A stretch of 32,292 nt of DNA from Candidatus Brocadiia bacterium (GTDB lineage: Bacteria > Planctomycetota > MHYJ01 > WSZJ01), in assembly GCA_013360825.1 (NCBI GenBank), contig JABWAY010000004.1, forward strand, positions 1 through 32,292. Direction: 5' to 3'. How positions within the stretch are numbered: the stretch's first letter is position 1; each line of letters starts with the position of its first letter. Positions 3,854-22,396 of this stretch are shown piece by piece. Made by a program: the position numbers and the translations under genes. Under the pieces are notes generated by a model. That model did not search any database. It saw only the letters and a list, made by a program, of their open reading frames with translations, and had not been told where the DNA came from.

Positions 3854-4672
3854 ATGTGGATCGTCAAAAACGTCCTTCGCGGCTCGATCCAGATCGAAGA
3901 CCTCAAGGTCAAGATCCCCGCCAAGGACTATTTCGACCTGGATAAGATCGGCCGGGAGCGCGCGGAACAGTCGCGCCAGCTCAAGCTTGCGATGGAGGAA
4001 GGCTACCTCCAGAACGTCAAGAAGTCCGACCCCGGGACCAACGAGGCCGTGCTGGTCAAGGAGGAGACCCGGAGCGAGATCAAGTCGAAGATCGAGGAAC
4101 TGCGCGCCGCGATCGTCAAGTCTCCCGACAAGGAGACGGTCCTGAAGGCGATCGGGGATCTCCGCGGCGTCCTGGCGGGCTCGAAGGATGTGGAACAGAT
4201 CCGCGCCGACTTCGACGACCTGAAGAAGCTGGTCTCCTCCATGGACGGCGACGGCGGCTGGCTCAAGAAGGAATTCGAGAAGCTGCGGACCTCGTTCTTC
4301 GACAAGGAGAAGGACGAGAAGACCCTGATGAAGCGGGAGGTCCTGGAGCTCCGGAAGGCGGTGCTCGAGGAGCGCGGACGGTCCCAGGCGGTGCTCACGC
4401 AGTTCAACGAGTTCCGGGACACCCTCCTCAAGGAATTCAAGGGGCTGCTCACCGGCCTGGTCGCCGCGGGCCCCCGCATGTCGGCCACCGGCGAGGGCGG
4501 CGAGGCCGTCGGCGAGCGCGTGCGCATGACCGAAGTCGAAATCAAGGCCCGCCTCAAGATGCTGGACCAGCGGGAAAAGGAACTGCAGGCGAACTTCGAA
4601 TCCATCGGAAGGAAAGTCGAGGGCGACATGGGTGCGGCCAATCAGGCCGACCTCCTGTCGGACCTCGAGTAA
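3854..4672 (+). CDS. Coiled-coil protein paired with an actin-like ATPase, function unknown
   Basis: The product has 272 residues and no signal peptide or membrane segment, so it should be cytoplasmic. Residues 1-55 form a compact module (NVLRGSIQIEDLKVKIPAKD, then a Leu/Glu-rich helix ending EEGYLQNV). From about residue 65 to 200 the sequence is almost entirely charged heptad-like helix (KSKIEELRAAIVKS, FDDLKKLVSSMD, MKREVLELRKAVLEERG). A glycine-rich break (VAAGPRMSATGEGGEAVGER) precedes a final helix with TEVEIKARLKMLDQREKELQ. I do not recognise a named family. The N-terminal pattern reminds me of short beta modules in phage or structural proteins, but this is a weak impression. The gene lies 81 nt upstream of an actin-like ATPase on the same strand, with a promoter before it and a strong terminator after the pair. 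By analogy with filament/adaptor pairs it may bind, anchor or regulate the actin-like protein. That role is inference. Confidence 0.8.
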   Translation: MWIVKNVLRGSIQIEDLKVKIPAKDYFDLDKIGRERAEQSRQLKLAMEEGYLQNVKKSDPGTNEAVLVKEETRSEIKSKIEELRAAIVKSPDKETVLKAIGDLRGVLAGSKDVEQIRADFDDLKKLVSSMDGDGGWLKKEFEKLRTSFFDKEKDEKTLMKREVLELRKAVLEERGRSQAVLTQFNEFRDTLLKEFKGLLTGLVAAGPRMSATGEGGEAVGERVRMTEVEIKARLKMLDQREKELQANFESIGRKVEGDMGAANQADLLSDLE

Positions 4673-6946: not shown

Positions 6947-7696
6947 TCAGCGGCCGGGGACGGAGTACTGCTCGGCGTGGAGGACGCGTTCGACGAACTG
7001 CCGCAGCCGGTCGCGCGCCCCGGGATCGAGATCGACGAAGGCGATCCCGAGATCCCAGCCGCCCTCCGGCGAGGGGACCTGCCGGACGACCTGGCCGCGG
7101 CCGCGGACCGGCGCGGCCCCCGGGAGGTCGAGTTCCATCTGGAGGACGTCGCGGGCGCGGACCTCGTCCGCGGTCCGGAGGCAGACGCCCGTTTCGCTCA
7201 GGTTCAGGACGGTCCCGGGCCGGCGCGCGGCGGCGGCGTCTCCGTCCTTGAGCCATCGGACTCCCAGCCGCCGGGCGATCCGCCGGGCGCGCAGGAAGAA
7301 CGGCATCGCGGGCCGGTCGGCGCTGACATGGTCGAACGCACGCAGGATCTCGTCCCGGAGGTACGGTTTCTCGATGTAGGCCTTCACGCCGGCCGCGAGC
7401 GAGGCGGGGACGAGATTCCGGGTCTCGACCGAGCAGGTCACGACCACCCGGACGGCGGGGGCGGTCTCGATCAGGACGCGCGCCGCGTTCACCCAGCCCA
7501 CGCCGGGAGTGCTCGGGTGGTCCGGGAGCCCCAGGTCCACCGTGACCGCCCACGGCCCCAGGCGGTGGACGGCATCCAGAAGCGCGCGCCCGTGGGCCAC
7601 CGACCCGACGAAAGTGTAGTCGCTTCCCCTCAACAGCGTTCCGAACGCGACGCTGGCGACGGGACGGGGGTCGGCCACGAGGACGGAGCGGGGCAT
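6947..7696 (-). CDS. Response regulator with PilZ output domain
   Basis: The protein has 249 residues. Residues 1-125 form a receiver domain: SVLVADPRP at the acidic pocket (only one clear acidic residue), VTVDLGLPD with the phospho-acceptor aspartate, VVVTCS for the Ser/Thr switch, and AYIEKPY for the conserved lysine. Residues about 140-245 form a PilZ domain, the common cyclic-di-GMP receptor: RRIARR upstream, NLSETG matching the (D/N)xSxxG signature, and WDLGIAFVDL in the last strands. Loss of acidic residues at the receiver N-terminus may weaken phosphorylation. Its ATG overlaps the upstream gene's stop by one base (TGATG), indicating translational coupling. It is the last gene of a four-gene set with a decayed GGDEF regulator, a kinase and a CheY-like regulator. 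It likely links phospho-signalling to cyclic-di-GMP binding, for example in motility or surface behaviour; the target is unknown. Confidence 0.88.
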   Translation of the reverse strand: MPRSVLVADPRPVASVAFGTLLRGSDYTFVGSVAHGRALLDAVHRLGPWAVTVDLGLPDHPSTPGVGWVNAARVLIETAPAVRVVVTCSVETRNLVPASLAAGVKAYIEKPYLRDEILRAFDHVSADRPAMPFFLRARRIARRLGVRWLKDGDAAAARRPGTVLNLSETGVCLRTADEVRARDVLQMELDLPGAAPVRGRGQVVRQVPSPEGGWDLGIAFVDLDPGARDRLRQFVERVLHAEQYSVPGR

Positions 7697-13551: not shown

Positions 13552-14426
13552 GCGCGCCTCTCCGCATCGGCCGTGCGCCAGACGACCACGGACAGCGACA
13601 GGACGCTCACGCCCGCCAGGATCGCCAGGCTGATCCAGGGGCTGAACGGCATCATCTCGTGCAGGTCCAGCCCGGGCATCTTCGGCATCCGCGCCCCCCC
13701 GGCGGGCATCTCCGGCATCAGCGACGCCGAGATTTTCAGGACGTTCCGGTTCAGCGAGAGCAGGTATCCCCACTTGAGCTTCGCCGCATCCGTCAGGATC
13801 AGCGCGATCGCCTCGAGCATCAGGTAGACGACCGCGAATCCGATCCCGGCCAGGAAAGTCTTCCGGGTGCACGAGGAGAACGCCATGACGAGCGCGATCG
13901 CCGGGATGACGGCGATCGGGACCGAGAGCAGCACGGCGCCGGACAGCTGGGCCCCGTAGGCGGCCGTCGCCTTGTCCCCGAGCGCGTAGGTGGAGACCCC
14001 GATGCTGACCAGCGGGGAGAGCACGGCGGGCAGGAGGACCAGGACGGCGGCGGCGGCGAGTTTCCCCACGATGTAGTCCGCACGGACGATCGATTTCGAG
14101 AAGTACATGAGGAGGGCGTTGTGCTTCAGGTCGCTCGCCACCAGCCCGCTTCCCGCGACGGGCAGCACCAGCAGGCAGGTCCAGGTCAGCGAGGTGCTGA
14201 GCGCCGAGGCGGCGATGTATCCCGGATCGATCCCCGAAATCATCAGGCCGACGAAGGCTCCCGGCAGGGTCATCAGCATGGTGAGCCCGCCCAGGAGGGA
14301 CAGGGCGAGGGTATGGCGCCGGAAGATGTTCTTCGCGGTGGCCGTGGCGATCGCCAGGACGCGGAACGGGTGAGGCTGGAAGGTCCCCGTCCACGGCTGG
14401 TAGCTCTGGTCGAAGAGGGCGCTCAT
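13548..14426 (-). CDS. ABC-2 type transporter permease (first pair)
   Basis: The 292-residue membrane protein has about six hydrophobic segments. The N-terminal QSYQPWTGTF and the first helix after KNIFRRH match ABC-2 permeases of the YhaP/NatB style. DLKHNALLMYFSKSIVRADYIVGK is the conserved cytoplasmic stretch after helix 2. A methionine/proline-rich loop (LMPEMPAGGARMPKMPGL) precedes the last helix and could lie on the outer face. The ATG overlaps the upstream ATPase stop by four bases (ATGA) and the gene's stop overlaps the next ATPase start (GTGA). It should pair with the upstream ATPase, giving two complete exporters in one operon, or one heterodimeric complex. Confidence 0.87.
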   Translation of the reverse strand: MSALFDQSYQPWTGTFQPHPFRVLAIATATAKNIFRRHTLALSLLGGLTMLMTLPGAFVGLMISGIDPGYIAASALSTSLTWTCLLVLPVAGSGLVASDLKHNALLMYFSKSIVRADYIVGKLAAAAVLVLLPAVLSPLVSIGVSTYALGDKATAAYGAQLSGAVLLSVPIAVIPAIALVMAFSSCTRKTFLAGIGFAVVYLMLEAIALILTDAAKLKWGYLLSLNRNVLKISASLMPEMPAGGARMPKMPGLDLHEMMPFSPWISLAILAGVSVLSLSVVVWRTADAERRA

Positions 14427-15355
14427 TTTTCCGCTGCCTCGATCAGTCCGGAGAAGACGTCCTCGAGCGATTTCTGCGCCGGCGCGAGGTGGCGGACCTG
14501 TGTCCCGGTGGCCGCCGCGGCCCGGAGCACCGGCGCGGTCGCCTCGAGATCCTCCACCGGGATCACCAGCCGGTCCGCCTCCGCGACCTCCCGCGGCGCG
14601 AGACCCTCCGCGCGGAGGGCGGCCTGGAACCGGGCGCGGTCGCCCCGGAACCGGAGGTCGAGCGCCTTCTCCGCGTGGCCGATGATCGCATCGAGCGGGC
14701 CCGCGGCCGCGAGCCGCCCGCGATGGAGAACGACGACCTCGTCGCAGACCGATTCGACGTCGTGGAGGATGTGGCTGGAAAGGACGACCGAAATCCCCTT
14801 CCGCGTCGAGATGTCGCGCACCAGCGCCAGCATCTCCTCCCGCCCCTTCGGGTCCAGGCCGTTGGTCGGCTCGTCGAGAAAGAGGAGTTTCGGGTGGTGG
14901 ACGAGCGCCTGCGCGAGCTGCACGCGCTGGAGCATGCCCGTGGAGTACGTGTCGATGTCCCGGTACCGCGCTTCCCCCAGGTCCAGGGCGCCGAGGACAT
15001 CGTGGGAGCGGGCGAGGGCGTCGCCGGCGGACATGCCGACGAGGCGGCCGGCGAGGCTGACGTACTGGACGGCGCTCATCCTCGGGATCATGGACCCGGA
15101 CTCCGGCATGAACCCGGTGACCTGGCGGATCCGGAGGGCCGCGCGCCGCGAGTCGAGGCCGAGGACGCCGGCGGTGCCGGCCGTGGGGCGGATCAGCCCG
15201 AGGAGGATCTTGATGAGGGTGGACTTTCCCGAGCCGTTGGGGCCGAGCAGTCCGATGGCGCGGCCGCTGACGGACAGGGAGACCCCCGCCAGGGCGCGGA
15301 TGTTCCCGTAGACCTTGGAGAGATCGGCGACCTGCAGAAGCGGGGGTGCGGACAT
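14423..15355 (-). CDS. ABC transporter ATP-binding protein (first pair)
   Basis: The 310-residue ATPase has Walker A GPNGSGKS, Q-loop region TGFMPESGSMIPRM, signature YSTGMLQRVQLAQAL (non-classical, S-T-G-M), Walker B LLFLDEPTNGLD and H-loop LSSHILHDVES. The C-terminal domain ends PAQKSLEDVFSGLI, typical of CcmA-type subunits. It opens the five-gene minus-strand operon. ATG 15355 has no close Shine-Dalgarno sequence. TAAGAT ends 8 nt before it, which suggests a leaderless message. Gene order is ATPase, permease, ATPase, permease, lipoprotein, all overlapping or adjacent apart from the 47-nt gap to the lipoprotein. Confidence 0.9.
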   Translation of the reverse strand: MSAPPLLQVADLSKVYGNIRALAGVSLSVSGRAIGLLGPNGSGKSTLIKILLGLIRPTAGTAGVLGLDSRRAALRIRQVTGFMPESGSMIPRMSAVQYVSLAGRLVGMSAGDALARSHDVLGALDLGEARYRDIDTYSTGMLQRVQLAQALVHHPKLLFLDEPTNGLDPKGREEMLALVRDISTRKGISVVLSSHILHDVESVCDEVVVLHRGRLAAAGPLDAIIGHAEKALDLRFRGDRARFQAALRAEGLAPREVAEADRLVIPVEDLEATAPVLRAAAATGTQVRHLAPAQKSLEDVFSGLIEAAEK

Positions 15356-15363
15356 CGCGGGGG

Positions 15364-15393
15364 ATCTTATCCTCCGGCGCGGTGCGCGGTCGA
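15364..15393 (-). promoter_or_regulatory. Possible promoter of the double ABC operon
   Basis: On the minus strand, TCGACC (-35) is followed by an 18-nt spacer and TAAGAT (-10). The -10 ends 8 nt before ATG 15355, so the message may be leaderless. Confidence 0.45.
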
Positions 15394-15410
15394 GCGGGGA
15401 TTGCGCCGGG

Positions 15411-17147
15411 CTACATTTCTTCCGGCGCCTCGATCCCGAGGAGGTCGAGCCCGGTGCGGAGCGTGCGGCGCGCGGTCTGCACGAGCAGGATCCGGGCGTC
15501 GGTCAGCGCGGCGTCGTCGGACAGGATCCGCTGGTTCCGCCAGAAGCGGTTCACCTCTCCGCAGAGGTCGATCAGCGCGCGGCTCAGGAGCGAGGGTTCG
15601 TAGCGGGTCGTGGCATCGCGGATGATGTCGGGAAAGCGGCCGATCTGGCGCAGCACCGCGCGGTCCTCGTCCGTGGTCAGCAGGGTGAAGTCGACCGAGG
15701 CGGGCGGCTCTTTCCCGTACTTTCTCAGCGCGCTCGAGAGCCGGGCGTGCGTGTACTGGAGGTACGGCCCCGTTTCGCCCTTGAACGCCTTGGTCTCGGG
15801 GTCGAAATCGAGCATCTGCTGCAGGTTGAAGTCGATGTCGCGGGTCCGCGTGCGGGACAGGTCGTTGAAGATGACGGCGCCGATTCCCACCTGGTGTGCG
15901 ACGCGCGATTTCCGGGCCGCGTCCCATTCGCGGTCCGCGATGATCTCGTGGACGCGCTCGATCGCCGCCTGGAGCACGTCGTGCAGCAGCACGATCGTGC
16001 CCTTGCGCGTCGCCATCTTCTCGCGGACCCCCTCGGCGTTCACGATCCGCATCAGGCCGAACTCGACGTGCACCGGCTCGACGTCGACGCCGAGCAGCTC
16101 CGCCACCTTGAACAGCTGCCGGAAATGGAGCTTCTGGTCGGCCGCGACGACGTAGACCAGCGCCCGCGCCCCCAGATCCCGGCGGCGGTACAGGATCGCG
16201 GCAAGGTCGCGCGTGCCGTACAGACTCGCGTCGTCCGCCTTCCTCAGCAGGAACGGCTCCTTGAACCCGTGTGCGGTGAGGTCCACCACATAGGCACCCT
16301 GGCTCTCCGAGCAGAGCCCGCGCGCCTCCAGCTCCGCGATCGCCCCGGCCATCCGGTCCACGTACGCCGACTCACCGCTCCAGGAATCGAACTCGATCCC
16401 AAGAAGGGAATAGACGCGGCGGAACTCGGCCAGCGAGATGTCCCGGAAATGCTGCCAGACCTTTTTTGCCTCCGGGTCCCCCGACTCCAGCCGGCGGAAC
16501 CAGTCGCGGGCCTGCTGCCGGAACGCGGGATCGGCCCGCTCGGCCTCCGTGAAGCGGACGAGCAGGTCCTTGAGGAACTCGACGCCCCGCTCCTTCAGGC
16601 TCTCCTCGCTTCCCCACTTTTCCCACGCCGACAGCAGCTTCCCGAAATTGGTCCCCCAGTCGCCGAGGTGGTTCACGCCGATCGTCTTCCATCCGCAGAA
16701 GGCGTGGAGGTTCCGGATCGCGTTGCCGATCACGGTGCTGCGCAGGTGGGCGATCCCGAGCGGTTTCGCGATGTTCGGGCTGGAGAAATCGATGACCACG
16801 GTCCGGCCCTGGCCGAGGTCGGTTGCGCCCCAGCGCGCGCCGGCCGCGCGGGCGCTCTCGAGGACGGTGCGGGCAAGGACGGCGGGCTCGGCGAAGAAAT
16901 TCACGTACGGCCCGGTCGCCTCGATCCGGGCCACCGAGGCCGGTTTCCGGATCGCCGCGGCGAGTTGCCGCGCGACGGCCGGGGGCGGCGCGTTGTCGAA
17001 CCGGTCGCGGACCGCGAAGGTCGGAAAGGCGAAGTCCCCCATCGCGGAATCCGGGGGCGCCGTCAGCAGCTCCCGGGCGCGCTCCGCGGTCAGCCCCGGC
17101 ACCGCGGCGACCAGCGCGCCGATCACGTCCGTCCGTATCGTGTCCAT
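15411..17147 (-). CDS. argS: Arginyl-tRNA synthetase
   Basis: The 578-residue class I synthetase charges tRNA-Arg. The N-terminal Add-1 domain (1-90) is followed by the catalytic domain with FSSPNIAKPLGIAHLRST at the HIGH position and KMATRKG at the KMSKS position. The C-terminal DALR anticodon-binding domain (about 455-578) ends LLGIEAPEEM, the usual ArgRS ending. The HIGH motif is G131-I-A-H134: the first histidine is glycine and the third residue is alanine. Some bacterial ArgRS proteins have other residues at the first position, so activity is likely retained. ATG 17147 follows GAGGA. Upstream on the same strand is the methyltransferase, 60 nt away. There is no sign of truncation. Confidence 0.96.
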   Translation of the reverse strand: MDTIRTDVIGALVAAVPGLTAERARELLTAPPDSAMGDFAFPTFAVRDRFDNAPPPAVARQLAAAIRKPASVARIEATGPYVNFFAEPAVLARTVLESARAAGARWGATDLGQGRTVVIDFSSPNIAKPLGIAHLRSTVIGNAIRNLHAFCGWKTIGVNHLGDWGTNFGKLLSAWEKWGSEESLKERGVEFLKDLLVRFTEAERADPAFRQQARDWFRRLESGDPEAKKVWQHFRDISLAEFRRVYSLLGIEFDSWSGESAYVDRMAGAIAELEARGLCSESQGAYVVDLTAHGFKEPFLLRKADDASLYGTRDLAAILYRRRDLGARALVYVVAADQKLHFRQLFKVAELLGVDVEPVHVEFGLMRIVNAEGVREKMATRKGTIVLLHDVLQAAIERVHEIIADREWDAARKSRVAHQVGIGAVIFNDLSRTRTRDIDFNLQQMLDFDPETKAFKGETGPYLQYTHARLSSALRKYGKEPPASVDFTLLTTDEDRAVLRQIGRFPDIIRDATTRYEPSLLSRALIDLCGEVNRFWRNQRILSDDAALTDARILLVQTARRTLRTGLDLLGIEAPEEM

Positions 17148-17207
17148 GGTCCTCGGAACAGAAACAGGGCGCCGATGGCGGCCCCGGGAATCAGGTCCCG
17201 CGCGGGA

Positions 17208-17927
17208 CTACTTGCGCAGTTTCAGCGGCGCCAGCCGCTTCCCCCAGCGTTTCAGCGCCGCGGGAAGGAACCGCGTCTTCTCGCGCACTTCCTCCGGCCC
17301 CGCGGCGTCCTTGTGATTGACGCAGTAGAGGGTCCTCCAGAGCCCCAGGCGGTCCACCAGTTCCACCTTCTCCGGCTTCAGGTTCGTCATCCTCAGGAAA
17401 TCCGGCAGCTTCAGGTCGCTTCGCCATCCGGCCCGCCAGAAGAACGGGGCGAAAAAGCGTTCGATGTCGTTGATGAAGACGTTCGGCGCCATGAAGTGAT
17501 TGACGAAGACGATGCGGCCGCCGCGGCGGCAGACCCGTTTCATCTCCTGCACCACGGCGCGCGGGTCGGGAACGGTGGTGATGAAGTAGGCGGCGAGGAC
17601 GGCGTCGAAGGAGTCGTCCGGGAAATCGAGCTTCGTCGCGTCCATCTTGAACAGGCGGACGCCCTTCAGCCCGTGCTCGCGGACCCGCTTGTAGGCGCCG
17701 TCGAGCATGCCCTGGGAAAAGTCGATGCCGGTGAGGTCGACGCCGCCGGGGAACATGGGGAGGCAGGCACCGGTGCCGACGCCGACCTCGAGGATTTTCT
17801 CGCCCGGCCTGGGGGCCATGGCGGCCAGCGCCCGCCGGCGGCCGGATTCAAAGAACCGGTTGAAAACGAGGTCGTAGACTCCGGCGTAGAAGTTGTAGAC
17901 CCATTCGATGTGCCCGCCGCCCGCCAC
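17208..17927 (-). CDS. Class I SAM-dependent methyltransferase, PmtA/UbiE-like
   Basis: The 239-residue protein has a Rossmann methyltransferase core: motif I ILEVGVGTGACL (about 45-57), motif II TGIDFSQGML, the motif III region MDATKLDFPDDSFDAVLAAY and the post-III region RVCRRGGRIVFVNHF. The N-terminal YNFYAGVYDLVFNRFFESGRR resembles PmtA-type phosphatidylethanolamine N-methyltransferases, which make phosphatidylcholine, and also UbiE/COQ5 quinone methyltransferases. The lipid-methylation reading is preferred but not proved. The start is GTG 17927; GGAGG lies 4 nt upstream, slightly close. It is a single domain with no membrane helix and a basic C-terminal tail (LKRWGKRLAPLKLRK) that could touch membrane lipids. 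Confidence 0.82.
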   Translation of the reverse strand: MAGGGHIEWVYNFYAGVYDLVFNRFFESGRRRALAAMAPRPGEKILEVGVGTGACLPMFPGGVDLTGIDFSQGMLDGAYKRVREHGLKGVRLFKMDATKLDFPDDSFDAVLAAYFITTVPDPRAVVQEMKRVCRRGGRIVFVNHFMAPNVFINDIERFFAPFFWRAGWRSDLKLPDFLRMTNLKPEKVELVDRLGLWRTLYCVNHKDAAGPEEVREKTRFLPAALKRWGKRLAPLKLRK

Positions 17928-18003
17928 CGGACCTCCGATCCGGGGACCCTTCCCCGGCAGGGCGGGATTTTCTCCGGAAAGTGCGCCGAAATGAAGGGAA
18001 AGT

Positions 18004-18992
18004 TCAGGCCATCCGGGAGGCGTCGCGGGCGTGGGCGATGACGCGATCCAGGATCTCGTCGATGTCGACGGTGGGCCTGTAACCGATGGCCTTGCGGGCG
18101 CGCGCGATCGACGGTACGCGCCTCCGCATGTCCTCGAATCCCTCCTCGTAGGCGCGGTCGTAGGGGATCTTGCGGATCGGGATGCGACCGCCGACGCGGG
18201 CTGCGATGAGGCGCGCGAGGGCCAGGATGGAGATTTCCCTGGTGGCGCCCAGGTTGAAGACCTGCCCGGCCGCGGCGGGCTGGTCCGCCAGGGCGGCGAT
18301 GCCGCGGACGACGTCCCCGACCCAGGCGAAGCACCGCGTCTGGCGGCCGTCGCCGAACACCGTGATCGGCCCTCCGGCGAGCGCCTGCTCGACGAACCGG
18401 GGGATGACCATCCCGTAGCGCCCCGTCTGGCGCGGCCCCACGGTGTTGAACAGCCGGGCGATCACGACCGGCAGGCCGCGCTCCTTGTGATAGGCGAGCG
18501 CGAGAAACTCGTCGACCGCCTTGCTGGCGGCGTACGACCACCGCGACTTGCTGGTCGGCCCGAGCACGAGGTCCGCGTCCTCCCGGAACGGCACGGCCGC
18601 CGATTTTCCGTACACCTCGCTCGTCGACGCCACGAAGACGCGCCGCCCCTTCTTCGCCGCCGCCCGCAGGACCATCTCGGTCCCCCGGATGTTCGTCTCG
18701 ATCGTGTGCGTCGGCTTCTCCACGATCAGCCTCACCCCGACCGCCGCGGCCAGGTGGAAGACGACGTCGGCGTCGTCGACCTGCTCCGCCAGGAGAGATT
18801 CATTGAAGATCGAGTCGATCGTGTAGCGGAACCGGGCTTCGGTCTTGAGGTGCTCGATGTTCGCGATCGCCCCCGTCGACAGGTCGTCGATCACGGAGAC
18901 CCGGTCCCCGCGCGCCAGCAGGAATTCCGCCAGGTGCGACCCGATGAATCCCGCGCCGCCGGTGATCAGCGCCCGGCACCCGCGTTTGAGCG

Positions 18993-18996
<4 letters not shown>
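18004..18996 (-). CDS. NAD-dependent sugar-nucleotide epimerase/dehydratase
   Basis: The 330-residue extended short-chain dehydrogenase has the NAD-binding [10 protein letters not shown] at residue 13, VIDDLSTG after strand 2, a catalytic serine in STSEVYG, and YAASK (Tyr-x-x-x-Lys). [21 protein letters not shown] is typical of UDP-glucuronate decarboxylase, UDP-glucose epimerase and dTDP-glucose dehydratase relatives. The substrate is probably a UDP- or dTDP-hexose for cell-envelope polysaccharide; the exact reaction is not clear. Its ATG overlaps the carB stop by four bases (ATGA), so it is translated behind a pyrimidine/arginine biosynthesis gene, an unusual pairing. It is full length. Confidence 0.9.
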
Positions 18997-22265
<3,269 letters not shown>

Positions 22266-22283
22266 GGGTGTCGTCTCCCGTAC

Positions 22284-22310
22284 AAAAAAAAAGCCCCGTC
22301 TCAGCGGGGC
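22284..22310 (-). terminator. Intrinsic terminator in the carB leader (putative attenuator)
   Basis: On the minus strand GCCCCG-CTGAGA-CGGGGC is followed by nine T residues, ending 18 nt before the carB ATG. Only the minus direction has a T-run. Transcripts from the promoter at 22368-22396 must cross it to reach carB. Confidence 0.88.
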
Positions 22311-22318
22311 CGCGTCGT

Positions 22319-22348
22319 TCAGGTCTTGTTGGCGATTCGGTGGCTCAC
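22319..22348 (-). CDS. Putative nine-residue leader peptide of carB
   Basis: The frame GTG AGC CAC CGA ATC GCC AAC AAG ACC TGA would give [13 protein letters not shown] lies 7 nt upstream of the GTG. The stop lies 8 nt before the terminator stem, so a ribosome at the stop would cover the 5' arm and block the hairpin. That geometry matches leader peptides of attenuated biosynthetic operons such as pyrBI. One arginine codon (CGA) is present but there is no run of regulatory codons. It is far too short for coding statistics; position is the only evidence. Confidence 0.45.
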
Positions 22349-22367
22349 ATCTCGTTCCTGGGGCGGG

Positions 22368-22396
22368 ATATTAGCCAGCGGAGCCGCGTCGCGCAA
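22368..22396 (-). promoter_or_regulatory. Probable carB promoter
   Basis: On the minus strand TTGCGC (22396-22391), a 17-nt spacer and TAATAT (22373-22368). It is a moderate match. It would give a leader of about 95 nt that contains the short peptide and the terminator. Confidence 0.5.

Follow-up and report, generated by a model that had tools for sequence, protein, structure and literature searches.

A conserved terminator and short reading frame in front of carB, a candidate translation-coupled attenuator in a genus of Planctomycetota

The essential gene carB of an uncultured Candidatus Brocadiia bacterium (Planctomycetota) is very probably regulated through premature termination of its own transcript, judging from a compact leader that recurs in front of the gene in five species of one genus. 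The best reading of this leader, to which a probability of about one half is given, is a transcription attenuator coupled to translation of a mini-frame whose sequence would be of no consequence. The window, which is the whole 32,292-nt stretch of DNA analysed, comes from an 87.8% complete assembly of 532 contigs. It was compared with the corresponding regions of four sister species (G001 to G004; the window species is G000), all of them draft assemblies.

Anatomy of the carB leader

An earlier note on the window had described a promoter, a ribosome site, a GTG-initiated frame (MSHRIANKT), a stop codon 8 nt before a terminator with nine Ts, and then the ribosome site and ATG of carB. Every one of these elements was recovered from the sequence and by a terminator scan (Table 1), in which the carB hairpin was the strongest terminator-like site within the part of the window that was scanned. 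Structure is confined to this terminator. The whole leader folds no better than shuffled sequence (z -0.17) and no conserved competing fold was detected, in agreement with the earlier statement that no clear antiterminator is visible. From the GTG to the hairpin the leader is poor in U and rich in A and C, with 2-3 U in 36-38 nt.

Table 1. Features of the carB leader and neighbouring genes (window coordinates)
Feature	Position	Strand	Basis and remarks
-35 hexamer TTGCGC	22391..22396	-	sequence
-10 hexamer TAATAT	22368..22373	-	sequence; 17-nt spacer to -35
Putative transcription start (+1)	near 22359-22361	-	predicted from sequence
Shine-Dalgarno-like AGGA of mini-frame	22356..22359	-	sequence; 7 nt 5' of GTG
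Minimal ATG-TGA frame	22350-22345	-	sequence; window species only
Mini-frame MSHRIANKT	22319..22348	-	sequence; GTG start, TGA stop, 9 codons
Linker, stop codon to stem	22311..22318	-	8 nt
Intrinsic terminator GCCCCG-CTGAGA-CGGGGC plus nine T	22284..22310	-	terminator scan
Terminator stem GCCCCG/CGGGGC	22310-22293	-
Nine T	22292-22284	-
carB Shine-Dalgarno GGGAG	22275..22279	-	sequence
carB, carbamoyl-phosphate synthase large subunit	18993..22265 (ATG 22265)	-	1090 aa; TIGR01369 1495 bits, NF003671 1652 bits
Co-directional genes 3' of carB	14423..18996	-	NCBIfam
Epimerase/dehydratase	18004-18996	-	NCBIfam
PmtA-like methyltransferase	17208-17927	-	NCBIfam
argS	15411-17147	-	NCBIfam
ABC ATPase	14423-15355	-	NCBIfam

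The four genes that follow carB may form an operon with it, and the gene order is identical in G001 and G002. In this genus carB is separate from carA. Neither the carA nor the pyrB leaders of the genus contain a terminator or a leader of this kind, and a pyrimidine regulon of such leaders was rejected on these grounds.

Conservation of the leader in five species

The order of promoter, GTG frame, stop codon, hairpin, T-run and carB is present in all five species. The leader was seen directly at carB in four of them; in the fifth, G003, it lies at a contig end. There (locus L173, after position 14362, plus strand) the spacer between terminator and carB measures 91 nt and is rich in short repeats, as against 14-30 nt in G000, G001, G002 and G004. 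The promoter hexamers are separated by 17 nt in every species. At the same position the sisters carry the -35 hexamers TTGCGG, TTGCCG, TTGCTC and TTGCGC, and their -10 hexamers are TAGAGT, TAAATT, TAGATT and TAAATT. An AGG is kept throughout the alignment of the five species, 9-10 nt 5' of the GTG in the sisters. The sister terminators consist of the stem GCCCCGC/GCGGGGC and seven Ts, and begin 12-13 nt after the stop codon in all four, compared with 8 nt in the window species. The earlier note had proposed loss of either the frame or the hairpin in close relatives as grounds for abandoning its reading; both are kept in all five.

Between the species (G003 left out), carB shows 52-62% identity at fourfold-degenerate sites, so neutral sequence has largely diverged. 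The stretch from ACATAG through the linker and stem, block ACATAGGGAMGACCCCCCAGCCCCGC, is by comparison 96-100% identical in the three sisters that align without gaps; G003 is shorter by one C. The sister linker, GGAMGACCCCC(C)A, is strongly conserved (block ACATAGGGAMGACCCCC(C)A), to the same degree as the stem itself, which does not hold for the window species. A covariance search returned one copy per genome, with carB copies at 68-103 bits and the next match in the genus at 27 bits. Neither blastn nor the covariance model found further copies in the five genomes or in 54 more distant genomes, and the element was not detected outside the genus in that set.

Within this conserved frame of elements, the mini-frame keeps its place and not its codons. 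Its start and stop are present in all five species, the stop being TAG or TGA, and its length is always a multiple of three (24, 24, 24, 24 and 30 nt; seven codons in every sister). The encoded peptides are MSHRIANKT in the window species and MTNPRRT, MTNAHDT, MTHPHRT and MTTPDLT in the sisters. All four sisters have GTGAC, the start codon and the two bases after it, while mid-frame columns are 38-62% identical, much like the fourfold sites of carB. Since start, stop, linker and hairpin are kept while the middle of the frame drifts neutrally, selection appears to see those elements and not the peptide. The minimal ATG-TGA frame that the earlier note saw overlapping the GTG is real in the window species; it is absent from the four sisters and is thus not conserved.

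Terminators in front of genes are rare in the genus

In a background scan of 1.78 Mb of genus DNA, 41 strong terminators were found, 24 of which lie 15-29 nt after the stop codon of a gene. Only those at carB and trpE stand 25-37 nt ahead of a confirmed gene start and follow no nearby gene end; the few others near open frames concern frames unconfirmed as genes. The rate of strong terminators without a preceding gene end is about 3e-6 per nt per strand, which gives a chance of about 2e-4 for any given 60-nt stretch; the terminator at carB recurs in the same place in all five species. Among the carB genes of 80 other bacteria, three have any terminator within 250 nt upstream. Two further sites were noted. 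At locus L186 (position 1504, plus strand) a terminator directly follows a tRNA-like sequence and ends 7 nt before an open frame of 773 aa, and on a contig labelled Alsobacter soli (L042) a terminator-like hairpin lies about 58 nt before carB, possibly an independent attenuator.

No -10-like hexamer (TANNNT) is present between the terminator and the carB ATG in any of the five species. As there is no promoter-like sequence after the terminator, carB messages would have to pass the hairpin. In G001 a different gene stands upstream of the leader, and the leader is still found with carB. The proposal of regulated termination is thereby well supported at the level of sequence.

The trpE leader and other promoters of the genus

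The trpE gene of this genus is preceded by a textbook leader-peptide attenuator with Trp codons. The leader peptide reads MTHTRISPAYWWPYSAGTGADAGLPG in the window's own genome (L225), and MSRNASLRPSWSWRPYAHGTEAFAALAG and MTRTASNFPSRTWRPYAYGTEASAGLPG in sisters (L160, minus strand, hairpin at 7477; L165, plus strand, hairpin at 3914). In all three loci a terminator stands between the peptide and the gene, 25-29 nt before the start codon in L160 and L165. Ribosome-mediated attenuation is therefore likely to be available in the lineage. In each locus a -10-like hexamer lies about 9 nt before the leader-peptide ATG, so translation of the peptide probably starts on a leaderless RNA. Elsewhere in the genus (L161 at 19125, L166 at 4983 and L174 at 2440, all plus strand), the -35 of a promoter apparently lies partly within the T-run that terminates the gene before it, and the -10 lies just a few nt 5' of the ATG, as in leaderless-type starts.

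Proposed mechanism

In the favoured reading, the only promoter, upstream of the hairpin, would start a transcript that by default terminates at the hairpin with its T-run; the short RNA so released would measure about 75-80 nt. Its mini-frame of seven to nine codons would be translated by a ribosome entering at the 5' end. When the polymerase is slow relative to this ribosome, the latter would reach the stop codon close behind the polymerase at the moment the hairpin is due, the hairpin would be hindered, and transcription would continue into carB and perhaps into the downstream genes. The peptide would be irrelevant, and only the positions at which translation starts and stops would matter. 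No competing antiterminator is present, and a ribosome on the mini-frame is the simplest switch. What the sequences show is the anatomy of the leader and its conservation; translation of the frame, a positive effect of translation on read-through, and nucleotide supply as the signal that sets the pace of the polymerase are what we infer.

Once the polymerase has completed the T-run, a ribosome standing at the stop codon would by calculation be 39-44 nt behind it, measured from P site to RNA end. This is about the spacing of closely coupled ribosome-polymerase complexes, so there would be little room for an 18-nt hairpin. By standard ribosome footprints, a ribosome parked 12-13 nt away would end 2-3 nt short of the stem. 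In the four sisters a parked ribosome would thus not overlap the stem, which argues against a simple block. Other points also tell against translation coupling. The Shine-Dalgarno sequences of the sisters are weak (AGG, 9-10 nt spacing). The conserved sister linker exceeds what a terminator or a parked ribosome needs, the leader has no U-rich pause region, and carA and pyrB of the genus do without such a leader.

The signal may be nucleotide supply acting on polymerase speed, which is a guess. A leader this poor in U speaks against UTP-dependent pausing as in pyrBI and pyrE; the candidates left are CTP, suggested by the C-rich stretch before the sister hairpins, and coupling in general. That carbamoyl-phosphate synthesis is controlled by an attenuator with neither regulatory codons nor U-rich pause nor antiterminator, one that responds to how fast the polymerase moves compared with the ribosome and may do so by way of CTP supply in the C-rich run, is a doubtful proposition as a whole.

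Comparison with known leaders

The closest known case is the pyrimidine-controlled carA leader of Pseudomonas, to which the leader is likened by description and not by sequence. For the carAB leader of P. aeruginosa, one promoter and a leader peptide have been described, together with a stem-loop on which the pyrimidine response depends; the leader of P. syringae carA is reported to give a short terminated RNA, P32 (PMC4997734). Both the Pseudomonas leader and the present one have a single promoter and a terminator-like stem-loop between the start site and the first carbamoyl-phosphate synthase gene, and the putative peptide of the mini-frame has a counterpart in the short leader peptide reported in P. 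aeruginosa. In Pseudomonas, however, carA and carB share an operon and the leader stands before carA, whereas here it precedes a carB separate from carA, and the role of the Pseudomonas stem-loop is experimental while the present leader is described from sequence.

Like the pyrBI and pyrE leaders of E. coli, the carB leader places an intrinsic terminator in front of a pyrimidine gene, lacks both an antiterminator and regulatory codons, and has a frame whose putative translation would end near the hairpin. In the case of pyrE, the upstream rph gene ends a few nt before the hairpin. The earlier note had likened the stop-to-hairpin spacing to that of pyrBI; the likeness is only partial, since the 8 nt occur in the window species, against 12-13 nt in the four others, and there is no U-rich pause region. 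Unlike pyrBI and pyrE, which depend on UTP-sensitive pausing in a U-rich leader (PMC7818426), the carB leader is U-poor and has a dedicated frame of 7-9 codons.

Attenuators of the trp type, including trpE of this genus, have a leader peptide (putative in the case of carB) between promoter and terminator, with the terminator only a short distance from the gene, as in the carB leader. The trpE peptides, however, have 26-28 codons, contain Trp codons and are similar between species (WRPYAxGTEA in G001 and G002, WWPYSAGTGA in G000), whereas the carB leader has no Trp codons and no kept codons. The carA motif (SRC-12-1) of Polynucleobacter is likewise a candidate RNA element before a carbamoyl-phosphate synthase gene; in that case a long imperfect hairpin precedes carA of betaproteobacteria and has been put forward as a riboswitch candidate (PMC8632094).

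Alternative explanations

One rival that stays alive, although it is unlikely, is a regulated terminator switched by a protein or small molecule that binds conserved blocks of the leader (GGUUYAGGC near the 5' end and ACAUAGGGAMGACCCCC before the stem), the mini-frame being incidental. It would account for the conservation of the sister linker, for which a lone terminator or a parked ribosome offers no reason. The window species, however, lacks the GGUU and UAGGGA blocks and nevertheless keeps frame and hairpin; there is no conserved antiterminator, and no Rfam family scored at or near its gathering score. The PyrR-binding RNA motif gave no Rfam match in the leader, and a B. subtilis PyrR query, in a search run without a positive control, gave no match in the five genus genomes. 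An antiterminator or riboswitch was set aside, with no conserved competing fold and no Rfam match, and a CsrA-like reading of AUAGGGA was dropped because the motif is missing in the window species.

It is similarly improbable that the hairpin is a partial terminator of fixed strength, free of regulation, by which the level of CarB is set, or the end of a small RNA or micro-protein gene read through into carB, and is kept for dosage or for the small RNA. The position and strength of the terminator are constant across species, as such a role would predict, and the carA leader of P. syringae gives the stable small RNA P32 (PMC4997734). Ordinary terminators of the genus, on the other hand, stand 15-29 nt after a gene stop; only carB and trpE differ, and trpE is plainly an attenuator.

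A far smaller chance is given to a terminator that ends an upstream transcript, with a separate carB promoter between it and the ATG. The genes in L161, L166 and L174 provide a precedent within the genus, but just 14-30 nt are available at carB in four species, none of the five has a TANNNT hexamer there, and the conserved promoter sits upstream of the terminator.

Classical attenuation through arginine codons is largely refuted, since these codons number 1, 2, 0, 1 and 0 in the peptides of G000 to G004, drift at the neutral rate and are accompanied by no antiterminator, unlike at trpE. In its favour are the use of carbamoyl phosphate in making arginine, the presence of argS among the genes that follow carB, and a sister peptide with two consecutive Arg codons. 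E. coli does not control its arginine genes by attenuation (PMC6245113).

Significance

The product of carB makes a precursor common to pyrimidines and arginine. If translation-coupled attenuation proves to be true, the carB leader would be a small, testable example of control by ribosome-polymerase coupling, one that needs the position of a mini-frame and not its codons, in a lineage without genetics.
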